Source of the DNA: Thiobacillus sp.
GTDB lineage: Bacteria; Pseudomonadota; Gammaproteobacteria; Burkholderiales; Thiobacillaceae
Direction of reading: 5' to 3'
DNA length: 48,899 bases
NCBI GenBank assembly: GCA_019459705.1
Contig: JAIBFE010000259.1
Span: forward strand, 1-48,899
The notes under the pieces: generated by a model
Seen by the model: the letters and a program-made list of their open reading frames with translations, nothing else
Database searches by the model: none
What the model was told of the DNA's origin: nothing
Shown here: positions 165-18,552 of the stretch, piece after piece
Layout of the letters: each line of letters starts with the position of its first letter
Numbering within the stretch: position 1 is the stretch's first letter
Position numbers and translations under genes: made by a program

Positions 165-1709
165 ATGAAAGTGCGTGCGCAAATTGCCATGGTGCTGAAC
201 CTGGACAAGTGTATCGGCTGCCATACCTGCTCGATCACCTGCAAGAACGTGTGGACCTCGCGTGAGGGCATGGAATACGTGTGGTTCAACAACGTCGAAT
301 CGAAGCCCGGCATCGGCTATCCCAAGCAGTGGGAGAACCAGGACGTGTGGAATGGCGGCTGGAAGCTGAAGGGCGACGGCAAGCTGGTGCCGCGCCAGGG
401 CAGCAAGCTGAAAATCCTCGCCAACATCTTCAGCAACCCCAACCTGCCGGAGATCGACGACTACTACGAGCCGTTCACCTACGATTACCAGCATCTGCAA
501 AAAGCGCCGCTGTCCGAGACGCCGCCGACCGCGCGGCCGATCTCCGCCATCACCGGCGAGAAGATGGAGAAGATCAACTGGGGCCCCAACTGGGAAGACG
601 ACCTCGGCGGCGAGTTCTCCTCGCGCGGGCGCGACAAGAATTTCGACAACGTGCAGAAGGAAATGCACTCGACCTTCGAGAACACCTTCCTGATGTATCT
701 GCCGCGGCTGTGCGAGCACTGCCTCAACACGACCTGCGTCGCCTCCTGCCCGTCGGGTTCGATCTACAAGCGCGAGGAAGACGGCATCGTGCTGGTCGAC
801 CAGGACAAGTGCCGCGGCTGGCGCATGTGCATCTCCGGCTGCCCCTACAAGAAGATCTACTTCAACTGGAAGAGCGGCAAGGCCGAGAAGTGCATCTTCT
901 GCTACCCGCGCATCGAGGCGGGCCAGCCCACCGTATGCTCGGAATCCTGCGTCGGCCGCATCCGCTACCTCGGCGTGATCCTGTACGACGCCGACCGCAT
1001 CGAGGAAGCCGCCAGCGTCACCGACGAGAAGGAACTCTACGAAGCGCAGCTGAAGATCTTCCTCGACCCCAACGACCCGGAAGTCATCGCCGCCGCGCGC
1101 GCCGAAGGCATCCCCGAAGCCTGGCTCGAATCTGCGGTGAAGTCGCCGGTCTACAAGATGGCGATCGACTGGAAGATTGCCTTCCCGCTGCACCCGGAAT
1201 ACCGCACGCTGCCGATGGTGTGGTACGTGCCGCCGCTGTCGCCGATCCAGGCTGCCGCCGAATCCGGAAAAATGGGCATGAACGGCATCATTCCCGACAC
1301 CAAGTCGCTGCGCATCCCGATCACCTATCTCGCCAACCTGCTCACCGGCGGCAAGGAAAAACCGGTGATCACCGCGCTCGACCGCCTGCTGGCAATGCGC
1401 GCCTACATGCGCGGCAAGTCGGTGGAAGGCATCCCCAATACCGCCGCCCTTGACCAGGTGGGGCTGACTTCGGCGCAGGCCGACGAGATGTACCGCTACC
1501 TGGCGATCGCCAACTACGAGGACCGTTTCGTCATTCCGTCCGGACACCGCGAAGAAGCCCTCAATACTTTCGAGGAAAAATCGAGCTGCGGCTTCACCTT
1601 CGGAAACGGCTGTTCGGACGGTGTTTCCAAGACCACGCTGTTCGGCAACCGCAAAAACTCGGTCCCGGTCGACCTGTCGCAACTGCATGCCAAGAAGAAA
1701 ACCGGTTAA
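165..1709 (+). CDS. narH: Nitrate reductase beta subunit NarH
   Basis: This is the iron-sulfur electron-transfer subunit of the membrane-bound respiratory nitrate reductase. It passes electrons from the cytochrome b subunit NarI to NarG. The 514-residue length is normal for the family. The first cluster motif has Cys16, 19, 22 and 26 at the same places as in E. coli. Further Cys-rich motifs start at Cys183 and Cys216. The CRGWRMC segment keeps the Trp (219) that replaces a Cys and makes that centre a 3Fe-4S cluster. The ATG at 165 has AAGGAG at 153-158. narJ follows after 11 bases with its ribosome site over the narH stop. The narG-narH gap of 117 bases is unusually long and contains a terminator-like hairpin. 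Confidence 0.97.
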   Translation: MKVRAQIAMVLNLDKCIGCHTCSITCKNVWTSREGMEYVWFNNVESKPGIGYPKQWENQDVWNGGWKLKGDGKLVPRQGSKLKILANIFSNPNLPEIDDYYEPFTYDYQHLQKAPLSETPPTARPISAITGEKMEKINWGPNWEDDLGGEFSSRGRDKNFDNVQKEMHSTFENTFLMYLPRLCEHCLNTTCVASCPSGSIYKREEDGIVLVDQDKCRGWRMCISGCPYKKIYFNWKSGKAEKCIFCYPRIEAGQPTVCSESCVGRIRYLGVILYDADRIEEAASVTDEKELYEAQLKIFLDPNDPEVIAAARAEGIPEAWLESAVKSPVYKMAIDWKIAFPLHPEYRTLPMVWYVPPLSPIQAAAESGKMGMNGIIPDTKSLRIPITYLANLLTGGKEKPVITALDRLLAMRAYMRGKSVEGIPNTAALDQVGLTSAQADEMYRYLAIANYEDRFVIPSGHREEALNTFEEKSSCGFTFGNGCSDGVSKTTLFGNRKNSVPVDLSQLHAKKKTG

Positions 1710-1720
1710 GGAGCTACACG

Positions 1721-2389
1721 ATGAAAACCTTCAAAGTCATTTCACTGCTGTTGATGTACCTGGAATCCGACTGGCTGGCGGCGCTGCCCGAAATGGAATC
1801 CGCGCTGGCATCCGAGGCCGATTTCAACGGCGATGCGCACACCCGCATGGCGCCGCTGTTTGCGCAGCTGCGCGAAACGGAATTGATCGCACTGCAGGAA
1901 AACTACGTCGCCACCTTCGACCGCAATCCCTCGCATTCGCTGCACCTGTTCGAGCACATTCACGGCGAATCGCGCGACCGCGGCTCGGCGATGATCGATC
2001 TGCTGAACGAATACTGGAAGCACGACTTCGACGCCAGCGCCTCGGAATTGCCCGATTACGTTCCGCTGTTCCTCGAATTCCTGTCGCTGCTGCCGGCCGA
2101 TGAGGCCCTCGCCCTGCTCGGCGACGCCGTGCACGTGCTCGCCACCATCGGCCGCAAGCTCGACGCCAACGGCAGCCCCTACGCCACGGCTTTCCAGGTA
2201 CTGGAAGCGCTGTCGCCGGTGGCGGCGCAGGAACTGGCCGAGCCCCCGGTGCGCGACATGGACGAGGCGATGGAGATGTTCGGCCCGACCATGGATGGCG
2301 TCGAACCGCTGCTGAAGCCCGTCCCGCAGGTGTCGGTGGTGCAGATGCCGGCTTCCCACCGGCAGGCCGCCGCATCCAGAACGCATTGA
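1721..2389 (+). CDS. narJ: Nitrate reductase assembly chaperone NarJ
   Basis: NarJ is a cytoplasmic chaperone of the TorD family. It binds apo-NarG, holds it for molybdenum-cofactor insertion and keeps it from membrane attachment until mature; it is not part of the final enzyme. The 222-residue all-helical sequence has the typical start (MKTFKVISLLLMYLESDWL) and the conserved acidic and aromatic segment SLHLFEHIHGESRDRG in the first half. The C-terminal 30 residues or so are low in complexity, as in other NarJ proteins. AAGGAG at 1708-1713 overlaps the narH stop, so translation is probably coupled. narI follows after 18 bases. Confidence 0.95.
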   Translation: MKTFKVISLLLMYLESDWLAALPEMESALASEADFNGDAHTRMAPLFAQLRETELIALQENYVATFDRNPSHSLHLFEHIHGESRDRGSAMIDLLNEYWKHDFDASASELPDYVPLFLEFLSLLPADEALALLGDAVHVLATIGRKLDANGSPYATAFQVLEALSPVAAQELAEPPVRDMDEAMEMFGPTMDGVEPLLKPVPQVSVVQMPASHRQAAASRTH

Positions 2390-2407
2390 CCCAAGGAGGA
2401 TCGAATC

Positions 2408-3091
2408 ATGTCCTACTCGCAAACCTTTCTGTTCGGGATCTACCCCTACATCGCGCTGTCGGTGTTTTTTCTCGGCAGCCTGATCCGCTTCGACCGCGAG
2501 CAGTACACGTGGAAGAGCGATTCGTCGCAGCTGCTCAAGCGCGGCCAGCTGCGGCTGGGCAGCAACCTGTTCCACATCGGCGTGCTGTTCCTGTTCTTCG
2601 GCCATTTCTTCGGCATGCTGACGCCGCACTTCGTCTACGAGCCCTTCATCAGCGCTGGCGCCAAGCAGATCCTTGCCATGGTGTCGGGCGGTACCGCGGG
2701 CGTGCTGGCCTTCATCGGATTGTCCCTGCTGCTGCACCGCCGGCTGACCGAGCCGCGCATCCGCGCCACCTCGAAGCCCAGCGACATCCTGATCCTGCTG
2801 CTGCTGTGGCTGCAGCTGCTGCTCGGACTGGCGACCATTCCGCTGTCGGCGCAGCACCTGGACGGCAGCATGATGATCCGCCTAGCCGAGTGGGGGCAGC
2901 GCATCGTCACCTTCCGCGGCGGCGCGGTCGAACTGCTCGAGGGCGCAGGCTGGATATTCAAGACGCACCTGTTCCTCGGCATGACGATTTTCCTCGTCTT
3001 CCCGTTCACGCGCCTGGTGCATGTGTGGAGCGGATTTGCTGCAACGACCTACGTGGTGCGCGCCTGGCAGCTGGTGCGTCCGCGCGGCTGA
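2408..3091 (+). CDS. narI: Nitrate reductase gamma subunit NarI (cytochrome b)
   Basis: NarI anchors the NarGH complex to the membrane and oxidises quinol through two b hemes. The 227-residue protein has five hydrophobic segments. The heme ligands are His56 and His66 in the second segment and His187 and His205 in the fifth, the same positions as in E. coli NarI. The start at 2408 is supported by AAGGAGG at about 2393-2399. The gene closes the classical narGHJI set. The next gene starts only 24 bases after the stop with its own good ribosome site, so the transcript very likely continues into the sulfur-related genes downstream. Confidence 0.96.
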   Translation: MSYSQTFLFGIYPYIALSVFFLGSLIRFDREQYTWKSDSSQLLKRGQLRLGSNLFHIGVLFLFFGHFFGMLTPHFVYEPFISAGAKQILAMVSGGTAGVLAFIGLSLLLHRRLTEPRIRATSKPSDILILLLLWLQLLLGLATIPLSAQHLDGSMMIRLAEWGQRIVTFRGGAVELLEGAGWIFKTHLFLGMTIFLVFPFTRLVHVWSGFAATTYVVRAWQLVRPRG

Positions 3092-3115
3092 GCCTAATCG
3101 ATCAAGGAGACTGAA

Positions 3116-4672
3116 ATGACTCATGTTGTCATCCTGGGGGCCGGCATCGCAGGGGTGTCTGCGGCCTATGCCCTGAAATCCAAGCTGGGGCCGCGCGACG
3201 AAGTGACGGTGGTGTCGGACAAGCCCTACTTCCACTTCGTGCCGTCGAATCCATGGATCGCCATGGGCTGGCGCGAGCGCGCCGACATCGCCTTCCCGAT
3301 CGGCCCCTATCTCGAATCGCGCGGCATCAAGTTCATCCACAGCGGCGTCAAGCGCATCCAGCCCGAAGTCATCCAGGTCGATCTGGAAAACGGCGACGTG
3401 CTGTTCTACGACACGCTGCTGATCGCCACCGGTGCGGCCGGCATGAACGACGACGTCCCCGGCATGGCCGAGCACACCCAGTCGGTGATCCATGTCGACC
3501 AGGCTGAGAAGGCGCTGGCCGCCTACCGCGAATTCGTGCGCCATCCCGGTCCCATCGTGATCGGCGCGGCGGCGGGCGCCAGCGTGCTGGGGCCGCTCTA
3601 CGAGTACGCCTTCCTGATCGACGCCGATCTCAAGCGCCGCAACATCCGCGAGCGGGTGACCATCACCCTGGTGACGCCCGAGCCCTGGCCCGGCCACCTC
3701 GGCCTTGGCGGAGAAGGCGCCAGCCGCGGCGCAGTGACGGCCGCACTGGTCGACACCCGGATCAGCGTGATCTGCAACGCCCGCACGCAGCGCATCGACA
3801 AGGACACCATTCATGTGGTCGAACTCGACGCCAACGGCAATGAAAAACAGACCCATGCCCTGCCCTATGCCTATTCGGTTTACTGGCCGGCCTTCGGCGG
3901 CGTGCCCGGCGTCCGCTCCGCAACCGGCCTGGTGAATGAACGTGGCCTCGTCGTGGTGGACGAGTACCTGCGCAACCCCGACTACCCCAACGTGTTCGCC
4001 CTCGGTGCCTGCGTCGCGCAGCCGGCGGTGGACAAGACCCCGGTGCCGGTGGGTGCGCCGGATTCGGTGTACTCGATCTCGAAAGCCGGCGAGATCGTGG
4101 TGCAAAACATCCTCGCCCAGGCCGGCGACGCGCCGCTGGTGAGCTACGTGCCTCAACGCGCCAAGTGGCTGACCGACATGGGCACCACGGGGGCCACCTA
4201 TCTGTCGGAGCCGCAGGTGCCCTTGCGCGACATCAACTGGATGCGCCAGGGACGGTGGGTACACCAGGCCAAGGTCGATTTTGAAAAGTATTTCGTCAAC
4301 AAGATAAAACTGCAGAGCACGGGCCAGGCACCGTCGGCCGCCTCCCGGATTGCCGACGTGATGAGCCGCGCGCTGGCCGCAAAAGGCGGTGGGCAGTCGC
4401 CCGTGGCCGTGACTGCGCCGCCGGGCAGCGGCAAGCCGCTGGAAATTCGCCTGCCGCAGGATCCCTGCGTCGAACTCAGGGCACTGGCCCGATCGATAGG
4501 ACGCGAACCCGATGCGCTGGCCGCCGAACTGCTGGCCGCTGCCGTGTCCGATGCCAAGTCCTACCTGAACGAGGCAGGGGTCGAAGCGATGGCCTTGTCC
4601 CGGCGGGAGCTGCTGGTGGAGTCCCTGCCGGAACGGCAGCCGGGCGTCGAGTTCCACGGCGGAGGAACCTGA
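3116..4672 (+). CDS. Sulfide:quinone oxidoreductase-like FAD protein with C-terminal extension
   Basis: The first 400 residues or so read as a two-dinucleotide-domain flavoprotein of the SQR/flavocytochrome c sulfide dehydrogenase group. The N-terminal FAD motif is GAGIAGVSAAYAL. YDTLLIATGA lies near residue 100, and NVFALGAC near 293-299 is the second FAD-contact motif. True SQRs carry a redox cysteine in a GASCFGPxYE-type motif; here the same motif reads GASVLGPLYE with Val157. The only cysteines are 220, 299 and 451, so classical sulfide oxidation chemistry is doubtful. Residues about 440-518 form an extra tail that is not part of SQR. Its LEIRLPQ strand followed by two predicted helices looks like a ribbon-helix-helix pattern. 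The gene follows narI closely and precedes a DsrC-like gene. Substrate unknown; a quinone- or protein-linked sulfur or NAD(P)H role is possible. Confidence 0.8.
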   Translation: MTHVVILGAGIAGVSAAYALKSKLGPRDEVTVVSDKPYFHFVPSNPWIAMGWRERADIAFPIGPYLESRGIKFIHSGVKRIQPEVIQVDLENGDVLFYDTLLIATGAAGMNDDVPGMAEHTQSVIHVDQAEKALAAYREFVRHPGPIVIGAAAGASVLGPLYEYAFLIDADLKRRNIRERVTITLVTPEPWPGHLGLGGEGASRGAVTAALVDTRISVICNARTQRIDKDTIHVVELDANGNEKQTHALPYAYSVYWPAFGGVPGVRSATGLVNERGLVVVDEYLRNPDYPNVFALGACVAQPAVDKTPVPVGAPDSVYSISKAGEIVVQNILAQAGDAPLVSYVPQRAKWLTDMGTTGATYLSEPQVPLRDINWMRQGRWVHQAKVDFEKYFVNKIKLQSTGQAPSAASRIADVMSRALAAKGGGQSPVAVTAPPGSGKPLEIRLPQDPCVELRALARSIGREPDALAAELLAAAVSDAKSYLNEAGVEAMALSRRELLVESLPERQPGVEFHGGGT

Positions 4673-5087: not shown

Positions 5088-6296
5088 ATGGCCCTGCTCC
5101 CCATCGAAGATCTGCAGAAGCGCCCGCCGCTCATCGGCTGGGCGCCGTTCGCCCTCGGCTTTCGCCCCTTTTTCCTGGCTGCCGGCGTGTATGCCGTCGT
5201 GCTGATGGCACTCTGGCTGCTGGTGCTGCGCGGCAGTCTGGAACCCGGCATGCTGTCGCCGCTCGTCTGGCACGGCCACGAGATGCTGTTCGGCTTCACC
5301 GTGGCGGTGATCGCCGGCTTTCTGCTCACCGCCGCACAGAACTGGACCGGCATCCGAACGCCATCCGGCACGCCGCTCGCCGCGCTGTTCCTGGTATGGC
5401 TGGCGGGCCGGCTGGCCTTCCTGGTTCCGGGACTGCCGGCGGGGCTGGTCGCGCTGGTCGACCTGGCTTTCCTGCCTGCGGTTGCACTGACGCTTGCGGT
5501 GCCCATCCTCAAGGCAAGGCAGCTGCATAACGCTCCCTTCCCCCTCATGTTGCTGGTGCTGACGGCGGCAAATGCGCTGGTGCATCTTGAAGCGCTCGGC
5601 TGGACCACCGGCTGGGCCTTCTCCAGCGCCAGCCTGGGACTGCATCTCGCCACGTACGTGGTGGTGACGATGGTGGTGGTGATGGGGGGGCGGGTGATTC
5701 CGAGCTTCACCGACAACAAGCTGCGCACCCGCGCCCGGCGCTGGAAAACCATCGAAATACTGGTGCCGGTCACCACCCTGGGCGCCTTGCTGGCGGCACT
5801 GATCGCCTCCGATTCGTACATCACCGCGCTGCTCGCAGCCACCGCGGCGACCGTGCACGTCATCCGGCTGGCAGGCTGGTACACCCCACAATACTGGTCG
5901 GTGCCGCTGCTGTGGATCCTGCATCTGGGGTATGCCTGGATCGCGCTCGGCTTCGCGTTGCTGGCCTTGTCGGCAGCGGGATTCAGCACGGCGGCCGTGA
6001 GTTCGCTGCATGCCTTTACCGCCGGTGGCATCGGTGTGCTGACCCTGGGCATGATGGCGCGGGTTTCGCTTGGCCACACCGGGCGGATGCTGGAACCGGC
6101 GCCGGTGATGACGCGGGCCTTCGTCGCCATCAATCTCGCGGCCCTGCTCCGCGTCGCACTGCCGCTGCTTTTTCCGGGCGTGTACATGCAGAGCATGATG
6201 GCGGCCGGGCTGGCGTGGGTGATCGCGTTTGCCCTGTTCGTCGTGATCTATGCCCCCATGCTGCTGCGTCCGCGGGTCGACGGCAAACCCGGCTGA
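5088..6296 (+). CDS. nnrS: NnrS family membrane protein
   Basis: NnrS proteins are heme- and copper-containing membrane proteins found in denitrifiers and linked to nitric oxide tolerance. This 402-residue sequence has about twelve hydrophobic segments and the family signatures GFRPFFLAAG near the N terminus, WHGHEMLFGF near residue 60 and ARVSLGHTGR in the C-terminal third. ATG 5088 was chosen because the hydrophilic lead MALLPIEDL and first conserved segment begin there. Upstream in-frame TTG codons overlap the previous gene and encode unconserved sequence, although no strong ribosome site precedes 5088. The next gene starts at the base after its stop. Its place in the nar neighbourhood fits protection from NO made during nitrate and nitrite reduction. 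Confidence 0.93.
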   Translation: MALLPIEDLQKRPPLIGWAPFALGFRPFFLAAGVYAVVLMALWLLVLRGSLEPGMLSPLVWHGHEMLFGFTVAVIAGFLLTAAQNWTGIRTPSGTPLAALFLVWLAGRLAFLVPGLPAGLVALVDLAFLPAVALTLAVPILKARQLHNAPFPLMLLVLTAANALVHLEALGWTTGWAFSSASLGLHLATYVVVTMVVVMGGRVIPSFTDNKLRTRARRWKTIEILVPVTTLGALLAALIASDSYITALLAATAATVHVIRLAGWYTPQYWSVPLLWILHLGYAWIALGFALLALSAAGFSTAAVSSLHAFTAGGIGVLTLGMMARVSLGHTGRMLEPAPVMTRAFVAINLAALLRVALPLLFPGVYMQSMMAAGLAWVIAFALFVVIYAPMLLRPRVDGKPG

Positions 6297-15513: not shown

Positions 15514-17529
15514 ATGAGTTCTGTGATCACAAGCTTTCCCCGCGAAGTCATCAAGCGCGACGGGCGCCGCACTCCGTTCGATGCTGCGAAGATCCGTTCG
15601 GCGATTGTGCGGGCCGGACAGGCCAGCGGCGAGTTCGGCGAGTCCGAAGCCGAGTTGATCACCGCCCAGGTGACGAAGGTGCTGATCCACAGCCTGCGCG
15701 GCGCGCCGCCCGACATCGAGCGCATCCAGGACATCGTCGAGCAGAGCCTGATCGCCGCCAACCATCTGGCCACCGCGCGCGCCTACATCGCCTATCGCGA
15801 GTCGCACAAGAAGCTGCGCGAAGACCGCAAGACGCTGGTCGACGTCGAGGCCTCGGTCAACGAATACCTCTCGCAGCAGGACTGGCGCGTCAACGCCAAC
15901 GCCAATCAGGGCTATTCGCTGGGCGGGCTGATCCTCAACGTGTCGGGCAAGGTGGTGGCCAACTATTGGCTCAACCACGTCTATCCGCCCGAGCTCGGCG
16001 AAGCGCATCGCGACGGCTCGATCCACGTCCACGACCTCGACATGCTGGCGGGCTACTGCGCCGGCTGGTCGCTGCGCACGCTGCTGCACGAGGGCCTCAA
16101 CGGCGTGCCGGGCAAGGTCGAGGCGGGGCCGCCCAAGCACATGTCCTCTGCGGTCGGCCAGATCGTGAACTTCCTCGGCACCTTGCAGAACGAATGGGCC
16201 GGCGCCCAGGCCTTCTCCTCGTTCGACACCTACATGGCGCCCTTCATCCGCACCGACGGCATGAGCTACGAAGCGGTGAAGCAGTGCATCCAGGAACTGA
16301 TCTACAACCTCAACGTGCCGTCGCGCTGGGGCACCCAGACGCCGTTCACCAACCTCACCTTCGACTGGACCTGCCCGGAGGATCTGCGCGAACAGGTGCC
16401 GGTGATCGGCGGCGAGGAAATGCCTTTCACCTACGGCGAGCTGCAGGTCGAGATGGACATGATCAACCGCGCGTATATAGAAGTCATGACCACCGGCGAC
16501 GCCAAGGGCCGCGTGTTCACCTTCCCCATCCCCACCTACAACATGACGCCGGACTTCCCGTGGGAATCGGAAAACGCCGAGCGCCTGTTCGCGATGACCG
16601 CGCGCTACGGCCTGCCCTACTTCCAGAATTTCATCAATTCGGAGATGAAGCCGAACCACATCCGCTCGATGTGCTGCCGCCTGCAGCTCGACCTCAGAGA
16701 ATTATTGAAGCGCGGCAACGGCCTGTTCGGCTCGGCCGAGCAGACCGGATCGGTCGGCGTGGTGACGGTCAACTGCGCGCGCCTGGGCTACGAATACCAG
16801 AGCGACGAGGCCGGCCTGCTGCGCCGCCTCGATGCGCTGCTCGACATGGCGAGGAATGGCCTCGAAATCAAGCGCAAGGAAATCCAGCGTCTGATGGACA
16901 ACGGCCTCTTCCCCTACACCAAGCGCTATCTCGGCACGCTGCGCAATCACTTCTCGACCATCGGCGTCAACGGCGTCAACGAGATGATCCGCAACTTCAC
17001 GGGCGACCAGCACGACATCACGACCGAATGGGGCCACGATTTCGCGGTGCGCCTGCTCGACCACATCCGCGGGCGGATTGCAGCCTTCCAGGAAGAGACC
17101 GGCCACATGTACAACCTCGAAGCGACGCCGGCCGAGGGCACGACATATCGCTTCGCCAAGGAAGACGCCAAGCGCTACCCGGGCATCCTGCAGGCCGGCA
17201 CGCCGGATGCGCCCTACTACACCAACTCGTCGCAGCTGCCGGTGGGCTTCACCGACGATGCATTCGAGGCGCTGGAGCGGCAGGACGACCTGCAGCGCAA
17301 GTACACCGGCGGCACCGTGCTGCATCTGTACATGTCGGAGCACATCTCGTCGGCGGCAGCCTGCAGGAACCTGGTGCGCCGCGCACTGGAACGCTTCCGC
17401 CTGCCCTACATCACCATCACGCCGACTTTTTCGATTTGTCCGAAACACGGCTACCTCGCCGGCGAGCACGAGTTCTGCCCCACGTGCGACGAGGAAGCCC
17501 TGTCCCGCAAGCGCGCTGTTGCCGCATAA
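15514..17529 (+). CDS. nrdD: Anaerobic ribonucleoside-triphosphate reductase NrdD, catalytic part without glycyl-radical tail
   Basis: Class III ribonucleotide reductase large chain, which makes dNTPs from NTPs without oxygen. ATG 15514 is preferred to 15466 because AAGGAGG lies just before it and the ATP-cone domain (IKRDGRRTPFDAAKIRSAI) starts about ten residues in. The 671-residue product continues through the ten-stranded barrel (SQQDWRVNANANQGYS near 130) to a C-terminal zinc-type segment with CPKHG and CPTC. It then stops, ending in RKRAVAA. A one-piece NrdD would continue for about 50 residues to the RVxGY glycyl-radical loop, which is absent here. That domain is supplied by the next small gene, in the same frame, one TAA and five codons downstream. 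The enzyme must therefore work as a two-chain complex. Confidence 0.93.
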   Translation: MSSVITSFPREVIKRDGRRTPFDAAKIRSAIVRAGQASGEFGESEAELITAQVTKVLIHSLRGAPPDIERIQDIVEQSLIAANHLATARAYIAYRESHKKLREDRKTLVDVEASVNEYLSQQDWRVNANANQGYSLGGLILNVSGKVVANYWLNHVYPPELGEAHRDGSIHVHDLDMLAGYCAGWSLRTLLHEGLNGVPGKVEAGPPKHMSSAVGQIVNFLGTLQNEWAGAQAFSSFDTYMAPFIRTDGMSYEAVKQCIQELIYNLNVPSRWGTQTPFTNLTFDWTCPEDLREQVPVIGGEEMPFTYGELQVEMDMINRAYIEVMTTGDAKGRVFTFPIPTYNMTPDFPWESENAERLFAMTARYGLPYFQNFINSEMKPNHIRSMCCRLQLDLRELLKRGNGLFGSAEQTGSVGVVTVNCARLGYEYQSDEAGLLRRLDALLDMARNGLEIKRKEIQRLMDNGLFPYTKRYLGTLRNHFSTIGVNGVNEMIRNFTGDQHDITTEWGHDFAVRLLDHIRGRIAAFQEETGHMYNLEATPAEGTTYRFAKEDAKRYPGILQAGTPDAPYYTNSSQLPVGFTDDAFEALERQDDLQRKYTGGTVLHLYMSEHISSAAACRNLVRRALERFRLPYITITPTFSICPKHGYLAGEHEFCPTCDEEALSRKRAVAA

Positions 17530-17544
17530 CCCAAGGAGACCGAG

Positions 17545-17724
17545 ATGAACGACATGACCGACCCGACCCAGGCCCCGCTCACGCTGAAAGAAGAGGAGCG
17601 CACCCGCTGCGAAGTGTGGACCCGCGTGATGGGCTATCACCGCCCGGTGACGAGCTTCAACAAGGGCAAGAAAAGCGAGCACCGCGAGCGGCGCTTTTTC
17701 GTCGAAGGGCGTTGCTCGAATTGA
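17545..17724 (+). CDS. Separate glycyl-radical domain of class III ribonucleotide reductase
   Basis: A 59-residue protein beginning at ATG 17545, with AAGGAG at 17533-17538, 15 bases after the nrdD stop. Residues 22-34 read CEVWTRVMGYHRP. R27-V-M-G30-Y31 is the RVxGY glycyl-radical motif that sits at the C terminus of ordinary NrdD, so Gly30 is the expected radical site. The remaining tail is basic (FNKGKKSEHRERR). The first 18 residues are polar and unstructured and may be the old linker. It is in the same frame as nrdD, which fits gene fission by a stop codon plus a new ribosome site. Without it the upstream NrdD chain cannot carry the radical. Short proteins of this type are, as I recall, labelled NrdD in databases. 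Confidence 0.9.
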   Translation: MNDMTDPTQAPLTLKEEERTRCEVWTRVMGYHRPVTSFNKGKKSEHRERRFFVEGRCSN

Positions 17725-17859: not shown

Positions 17860-18552
17860 ATGCTGCGCGTCGGCGGCCTGACCCCGCTGTCCACCACCGA
17901 CTGGCCCGGCATGCTGGCCGCAGTGGTGTTCTGCCAGGGGTGCCCGTGGCGCTGCGGCTATTGCCACAACCCCGGCCTGATTCCCGCGCGCGGCGAGAGC
18001 GAAATCCCCTGGGACGACGTGATGGCCTTCCTGCGGCGGCGTCAGGGCCTGCTCGACGGCGTGGTGTTTTCCGGCGGCTAGCCGACGCTGCAGCCCGGGC
18101 TGGCGGACGCGATGCGCGAAGTGCGCGCGCTCGGCTTCAGGGTCGGCCTGCACACCGGCGGCGCCTATCCGCGCCGGCTCGCCGAAGTGCTGCCGCTGGT
18201 GGACTGGGTGGGACTGGACGCGAAAGCGCCGTTCTCCGAGTACCCGCGCATCACCGGCGTCGCCGGCAGCGGCGTTCCGGCGCTGGCCAGCCTCGAAGCC
18301 GTGCTGGCATCGGGCGTCGCCCACGAAATCCGCACCACCGTTCATCCGGCCCTGCTGACCGACGCCGACGTCGCGGGACTGGCAGAGGAGCTGTCGGCAC
18401 GCGGCGTGAAGCGCTACGTGATCCAGGCATTCCGCAGCCAGGGCTGCGCGGATGCAACGCTGGTCCAGGCCGCAGGACGCGAGCGCCCGCTGGCCAGCCT
18501 GGTGGAGGACGTGGCCGGGCTGTTTGAGGATGGGCACTCAACGGCCTCATAG
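17860..18552 (+). pseudogene. nrdG: Anaerobic RNR activating protein NrdG with an in-frame amber codon
   Basis: NrdG is the radical SAM activase that makes the glycyl radical on NrdD. The frame opens at ATG 17860, with [12 protein letters not shown] and the CxxxCxxC cluster motif (Cys28, 32, 35 in [14 protein letters not shown]). At codon 74 (18079-18081) it meets TAG exactly where radical SAM enzymes have the Glu of the GGE motif: the sequence reads VVFSGG, stop, PTLQ. The reading frame then continues unbroken for about 157 codons with recognisable NrdG features (GFRVGLHTGGAYP, DWVGLDAKAPF, FRSQGC). One G-to-T change of GAG would explain it. An ATG at 18112 could restart translation, but neither half would be active alone. 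It could be a true null allele, a sequencing error or a suppressed stop. The whole frame would be 230 residues, a normal length. Confidence 0.85.

Follow-up and report, generated by a model that had tools for sequence, protein, structure and literature searches.

A putative two-chain class III ribonucleotide reductase with its glycyl-radical loop on a separate small protein

Class III ribonucleotide reductases (RNRs) are described as carrying the radical in the C-terminal domain of the one catalytic chain, NrdD (PMC9669993, PMC11226230), and oxygen cleaves the chain at this radical domain (PMC5704485, PMC3019208). Here we report on a locus in a 48,899-nucleotide stretch of DNA of Thiobacillus sp. 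(contig JAIBFE010000259.1, assembly GCA_019459705.1), the whole of which is called the window below. The system encoded there has a barrel, a zinc knuckle, a radical-loop sequence, and an NrdG partner (its gene being interrupted in the window) in common with the one-piece NrdDs of T4, T. maritima, P. copri, and S. thermophilus. In contrast to these enzymes, however, the window has the radical loop on a separate gene product.

Small radical proteins that act in trans are known from pyruvate formate-lyase (PFL), for which YfiD/GrcA and T4 Y06I serve as spare parts, and such parts were suggested to be possible for other glycyl-radical enzymes (PMC8683613). Like these, the small protein of the window is predicted from its sequence to be a small autonomous radical-glycine protein with phage versions, but it matches the NrdD family and would be obligatory instead of serving repair. 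In addition, the large chains of the split genomes end before the glycyl motif, unlike the partner enzyme of GrcA/YfiD, which has its own radical glycine. A C-terminal functional domain encoded as a separate gene is also found in the split class II RNR NrdJa/NrdJb of Pseudomonas aeruginosa (PMC5704485), although NrdJb is a cysteine-rich reducing domain and not a radical carrier. In phages, nrdD may likewise occur in pieces (PMC3653736); the breaks there are due to introns, inteins, or unexplained fragmentation, whereas the break in the window would be a functional fission at the radical domain. Both the spare-part idea and split RNR genes are already on record (PMC8683613 and PMC5704485, respectively). 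In the literature that we searched, which covers subscription journals thinly, we found no account of a bacterial NrdD whose glycyl-radical motif is on a protein of its own.

The original prediction held that the nrdD gene of the window is split into a 671-residue NrdD and a 59-residue glycyl-radical protein with its own ATG and AAGGAG, and the open reading frames (ORFs) and family models confirmed this. The large chain (P0001) matched NF006126/PRK08270 with 1138 bits (cut-off, 548), TIGR02487 with 453 bits, and PF13597 with an E-value of 1.6e-174 (582 bits), the last over profile positions 2-530 of 562. It ends in ...CPKHGYLAGEHEFCPTCDEEALSRKRAVAA-TAA, 13 residues past C658, and does not contain the glycyl-radical motif. 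This motif, WTRVMGYHRP, is on the separate small protein (P0002), whose 59-residue ORF contains RTRCEVWTRVMGYHRP. P0002 matched PF13597 at positions 532-562 (E-value 4e-8, above the Pfam cut-off) and TIGR02487 with an E-value of 4e-7, which is under the whole-protein cut-off of that family. As these matches cover the end of the NrdD family profiles, the small ORF is more than a chance ORF. PF13597 was its only Pfam match at E-values of up to 1, and no PFL-type domain was matched.

A two-chain class III RNR is the best explanation of what these sequences appear to encode. The small protein is very probably an obligate radical subunit that acts in trans on the tail-less NrdD; it should be obligatory because the large chain has no radical glycine. 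If it were instead a spare part kept for repair, in the way that YfiD serves PFL, another, intact NrdD would do the work. Its small size, the stand-alone viral copies, and the extra copies in one metagenome-assembled genome (MAG) would suit such a part. However, the large chains have no radical loop of their own, and a fused NrdD was found neither in the genome of the window (a MAG of 394 contigs, 86% complete), where these two pieces were the only NRDD matches, nor in the 13 split genomes of a sample of 185 genomes from the same class as the window (the class sample). We regard the spare-part role as unlikely. The proposed likeness to YfiD/GrcA holds insofar as the glycyl-radical motif is on a small, separate gene, but the protein would be no spare, with a large chain that lacks the glycine, and it matches the NrdD family rather than PFL. 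Class I or II catalytic-domain matches (PF02867) were present on two other contigs of the genome.

In the window, the break comes after the complete C-x2-H...C-x2-C motif (type A). As predicted, the two ORFs share a frame, with nothing between them but the TAA and five sense codons that include the AAGGAG, and the sequence confirmed that the read-through product would have 736 residues. Stop-codon readthrough or frameshifting could therefore be imagined to yield a one-piece NrdD, of which the small ORF would merely be the tail, and a common frame is likewise seen in 34 of 110 other type-A pairs. These pairs come from 113 non-redundant type-A rows (window excluded), 110 of which have the small gene just downstream; the other three are genomes G216, G658, and G724 (in G724, a motif variant was missed at this step and found otherwise). 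Against readthrough, the small gene was in relative frames 0, 1, and 2 in 34, 42, and 34 of the 110 pairs, and the intergenic gaps ranged from -89 to 549 nucleotides, with 21 pairs overlapping; the gap sizes are approximate because starts were set at the first Met. In G216, 9 kb of DNA with unrelated genes separates NrdD from the small gene and nrdG, and in G658 NrdD is on contig C41, with a small gene found on C16 alone. The small gene of the window also has its own AAGGAG and ATG. Because the three frames are about equally frequent and the genes are sometimes apart, readthrough was rejected as a general mechanism, and we consider it highly improbable; the shared frame in the window is a one-in-three coincidence. 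A sequencing error at the TAA was rejected as well, since relatives carry the same split. The original proposal that the radical works in trans is thus supported by genomics, namely by co-occurrence, independent frames, genes that are sometimes apart, and at least one apparent re-fusion.

We then counted split and fused genes in several samples. In the class sample, 17 of the 185 genomes had an NRDD match, of which 13 were split, three fused (G013, G054, and G095), and one weak and partial (G167). A full NrdD was present in 16 genomes, and the small gene was present in all 13 split ones. The search with the small protein matched 16 genomes of this sample: the 13 split genomes, two fused genomes, and G147. 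The small glycyl-radical ORF of G147 (L189, contig C142, 7386-7498) lies just 3' of what was judged by eye to be class I nrdA-nrdB, in a genome that is 99% complete. Among 349 genomes of the phylum, a sample overlapping the class sample, 13 were above the PRK08270 cut-off (11 split and two fused). The class of G392 (240 genomes) gave 26 matches at E-values of up to 1e-100, namely 19 split, six fused, and one partial (G612); the small gene was found in all 19 split genomes, in G658 on another contig.

Scanning the genome collection with motif patterns gave at least 580 matching stretches, at least 575 of which encode a relative. In the best 80 of these stretches (named loci), a tail-less NrdD was upstream in 78 (L061 is interrupted and L077 masked), and NrdD was not found beside the small gene at L120 and L124. 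L124 has the small gene and nrdG (by eye) with no adjoining NrdD. The titles of the named loci include Thiobacillus, Thauera, Ralstonia, Rhodoferax, Stutzerimonas, Pseudomonas, Pseudoxanthomonas, Chromatiaceae, Brevundimonas, an Opitutaceae MAG, and an Omnitrophica MAG. Motif invariance among these loci is partly by construction because they were found by motif patterns. Plasmid records also contain the gene, split in Cupriavidus necator, C. metallidurans, Paracoccus, Bradyrhizobium, and Sulfuricurvum and fused in Acidiphilium, Actinomyces oris, and Geoalkalibacter; in the annotated rows, the separate small gene is mostly named nrdD and in one row 'hypothetical protein'. As a side observation, NrdD at L190 (genome G134, 921-3899) is one ORF of 992 residues with an in-frame insertion of about 300 residues within its catalytic domain, which may be an intein.

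A comparison of relatives points to purifying selection on the small gene: its 38-codon core gave a pooled ratio of nonsynonymous to synonymous differences (pN/pS) of 0.19 over 190 pairs of 20 distinct cores, taken from the window, same-genus relatives, and one same-order relative. In the large chain, MCCR was kept in all 167 rows, fused rows included. The equivalent of Cys22 of the small protein was Cys in 107 of 110 type-A small proteins, partly by construction, as many of the loci were found with patterns containing that Cys. In the small proteins of L205, L206, and L209, a Cys stands at -6 instead of -8 from the glycine (VECWTRVMGY), a shift by two residues. The read-through chain was modeled with AlphaFold2, and the model had a mean predicted local distance difference test score (pLDDT) of 88.5 and a predicted template modeling score (pTM) of 0.85; the blocks of residues 691-736 had pLDDT values of 77-94, and the linker blocks 71 and 75. 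Its best hits in the PDB were the one-piece class III NrdDs 8p23, 9d3x, and 9dca, and the read-through chain is accordingly modeled to fold as a class III NrdD.

A second break point (type B) lies within the second knuckle, so that the large chain ends with CP.HGY..G.H.ECP and a few residues. The small chain then carries M[AS][KRT]CG.KTE[VI][YF]SRVCGY in eight of nine rows (L279 differs), and those of L260, L262, and L264 have an additional Met upstream. As this break is inside the knuckle, the small chain would supply the last zinc cysteine. All genomes in which type B was seen belong to the same phylum as the Opitutaceae genome G559. In that sample, 91 of 240 genomes matched, and 51 of the 91, chosen non-randomly, were inspected: 25 loci were all fused, and the 26 fetched comprised eight of type A, ten of type B, and eight fused.

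A tree of 64 rows was made by a quick method with a midpoint root. The rows were drawn from 166 (L077, masked by N, was excluded) and consisted of 34 hand-picked type-A rows, all nine of type B, and 21 of the 43 fused ones (L229-L250 omitted). Type B formed a single clade (100*), and clade A (99*) contained the 34 split rows and eight fused rows, with the remaining 13 fused rows outside. Six changes between fused and split forms were required on this tree, as on a FastTree tree of 167 rows. Judging from these sequences, re-fusion is the best reading of the fused rows that are nested in clade A. Repeated splitting is a possible alternative, given that the root was not inferred and that, on the 64-row tree, no more than three type-A label changes are forced by starred branches. 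The clearest apparent re-fusion is the nested fused NrdD of G706, whose long linker keeps a type-A-like small N-terminus (IELPEERRRKCEVWTRVMGY); no remnant was found in the fused rows L220-L224 of the alphaproteobacterial sample. Cys22 was dropped as a trace of former splitting, being also present in the fused rows L272, L275, and L276 outside clade A. Separately, among the fused NrdDs of the Opitutaceae-phylum sample (L226-L250), the C-termini that were inspected (such as those of L226, L228, and L231) bear a thioredoxin/glutaredoxin-like domain (CPNC, by eye) past the radical domain, a possible built-in reductant.

The small protein also occurs in viral contigs. A scan found 128 relatives, of which 80 were kept; these are 62 distinct cores, all with the glycine, the motif being required by both the scan and the count. 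No NrdD or NrdG was found in any of the 80 viral loci by tblastn with the window NrdD and the H16 NrdG (up to 4 kb on each side, less at contig ends), and no NrdD catalytic domain in 50 long viral records (12.9-108 kb) searched whole, in which PF13597 was matched only within positions 513-562, i.e., by the small protein. The 50 records are not strictly the longest of the 80, and none was classed as at least 90% complete; as they are taken to be fragments, the absence of NrdD is not proof. The neighboring genes include some for tape measure (L302), terminase, portal, and neck (L329), tail fiber (L333), endolysin (L316), replication and helicase (L342), and HNH (L369) proteins; at L336 and L307, the neighbors that were tested matched no PHROG. 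P0002 matched phrog_4132, a PHROGs family of 'unknown function', with an E-value of 9e-9, and three viral small proteins matched it with 2e-10, 3e-5, and 7e-11, all four within positions 117-162 of 179. Among 50,697 records of cultured phages, no stand-alone copy was found with the window protein and one viral protein as queries; these gave one and three weak hits, respectively, one of the three in an unannotated record. Three copies of the small gene were present in the MAG G563. The first is part of a complete split operon (L060), the second lies next to a phage neck gene (L120, 4917-5156), and the third (L251, about 5120-5575, minus strand) is in a stretch that by eye resembles an integrative element. 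Contamination is a possible source of the extra copies. The viral small proteins of L320, L329, L297, L319, and L363 have an extra Cys-rich N-terminus (by eye), perhaps with its own metal site.

We propose that the system would work as follows. The large chain would hold the ATP-cone, the barrel, the substrate site, the MCCR finger loop, and the zinc knuckle, and the small chain would provide the glycyl-radical loop by docking on the zinc-knuckle end of NrdD. NrdG, encoded by the neighboring gene, would use S-adenosylmethionine to abstract a hydrogen from Gly30 of the small chain, and the loop in the barrel would hand the radical to a finger-loop cysteine, upon which a nucleoside triphosphate would be reduced. 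Exchange of the small chain after oxygen cleavage is plausible, with the stand-alone viral copies as an indirect hint, and so is a supply of the radical part by phage-borne copies. A wider proposal, for and against which we see the case as evenly balanced, is that the radical of class III RNR is an exchangeable part: NrdD would have been cut at least twice independently, at two break points and once through the zinc knuckle, and phages, perhaps with other mobile DNA, would carry the small chain alone and supply fresh radical to the host NrdD, for DNA precursors in oxygen-stressed or anaerobic hosts.

Table 1. Features of the split nrdD locus and of the neighboring nrdG gene (window positions; finger-loop motif classes as in PMC9669993)
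Feature	Position	Strand	Basis or remark
nrdD large (catalytic) chain, P0001, 671 residues, without glycyl-radical loop	15514..17529	+	family models
ATP-cone regulatory domain of large chain, residues 11-100	15544..15813	+	PF03477, E-value 2.4e-23
Finger-loop motif SMCCR, residues 385-389, with expected thiyl-radical cysteine	16666..16680	+	MCCR alignment
Zinc-knuckle motif C642-x2-H645...C655-x2-C658; type A break soon after	17437..17487	+	putative metal site, from family
TAA stop of large chain	17527..17529	+	sequence
AAGGAG, ribosome-binding-like site of small gene	17533..17538	+	sequence
Small glycyl-radical subunit gene (putative), P0002, 59 residues, ATG at 17545	17545..17724	+	PF13597 positions 532-562; homologues
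Cys22 codon of small protein, 8 residues before radical glycine	17608..17610	+	type-A alignment
Gly30 codon, predicted radical glycine in RVMGYHRP	17632..17634	+	role predicted from family
nrdG2-type activase gene, broken by in-frame TAG	17860..18552	+	TIGR02495 matched by both halves
In-frame TAG within SGG-x-P motif of nrdG	18079..18081	+	uninterrupted in relatives' copies

Several points weigh against an obligate radical subunit working in trans. The production of the small protein, its binding to NrdD, and its radical are predicted from sequence; the finger-loop region of the model (residues 381-410) is poorly modeled, with pLDDT values of 68, 71, and 50; and the model is no test of binding because a single chain by construction presupposes the contact. 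G147 has the small gene at a contig end without any NRDD match. Finally, the only strong NrdG match of the window's genome is interrupted, which may reflect decay of the system in this strain or a wrong base in the assembly.

The interrupted nrdG is the sole match above the NrdG2 cut-off in the genome, with two weaker matches below. The in-frame TAG would fit an explanation in which the split is a decaying gene, with nrdD and nrdG both pseudogenes in the lineage. We compared the nrdG motif at 20 loci; L152 yielded no motif, and of the 19 copies in which SGG-x-P was read, that of the window was the only interrupted one. Over-cut-off nrdG matches with no internal stop were present in 18 of 24 other genomes of the same genus. 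The 18 uninterrupted copies stand against decay in the lineage, as do the recurrence of the split in the genome collection, the purifying selection on the small gene, and the report that nrdDG is essential for complete denitrification in C. necator H16 (PMC2864759). Such decay is very unlikely, whereas decay of nrdG in this one strain is possible. Whatever the cause of the TAG in nrdG, the conclusion on the family does not depend on this strain.

C. necator H16 has the same three genes, encoding an NrdD of 676 residues (76,191 Da), a small protein of 66 residues (H16_RS32675, with WTRVMGYHRP), and NrdG. Siedow and colleagues in 1999 are reported to have described a 76.2-kDa NrdD that lost its function upon the change G650A, and to have placed the radical at G650. 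In the H16 NrdD, residue 650 is the glycine of CPTHG650YL, in the zinc motif, and its equivalent was Asn in one of the 167 rows (L109). If G650 was indeed given as the radical site, the radical glycine was assigned to the wrong chain. In C. metallidurans, a small ORF is directly downstream of nrdD. The nrdDG genes of this species were given as Rmet_5137 and Rmet_5139 (PMC2864759), and Rmet_5138 is presumably the small gene, because the small ORF directly follows nrdD there.

The reported assignment of G650 in H16 as the radical site merits re-examination. Our results also offer a function for phrog_4132, the phage family of unknown function, and bear on the suggestion that spare parts may exist for other glycyl-radical enzymes (PMC8683613). 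A two-chain form of the class III enzyme in many bacteria would let radical installation, docking, and oxygen repair be tested piecewise.

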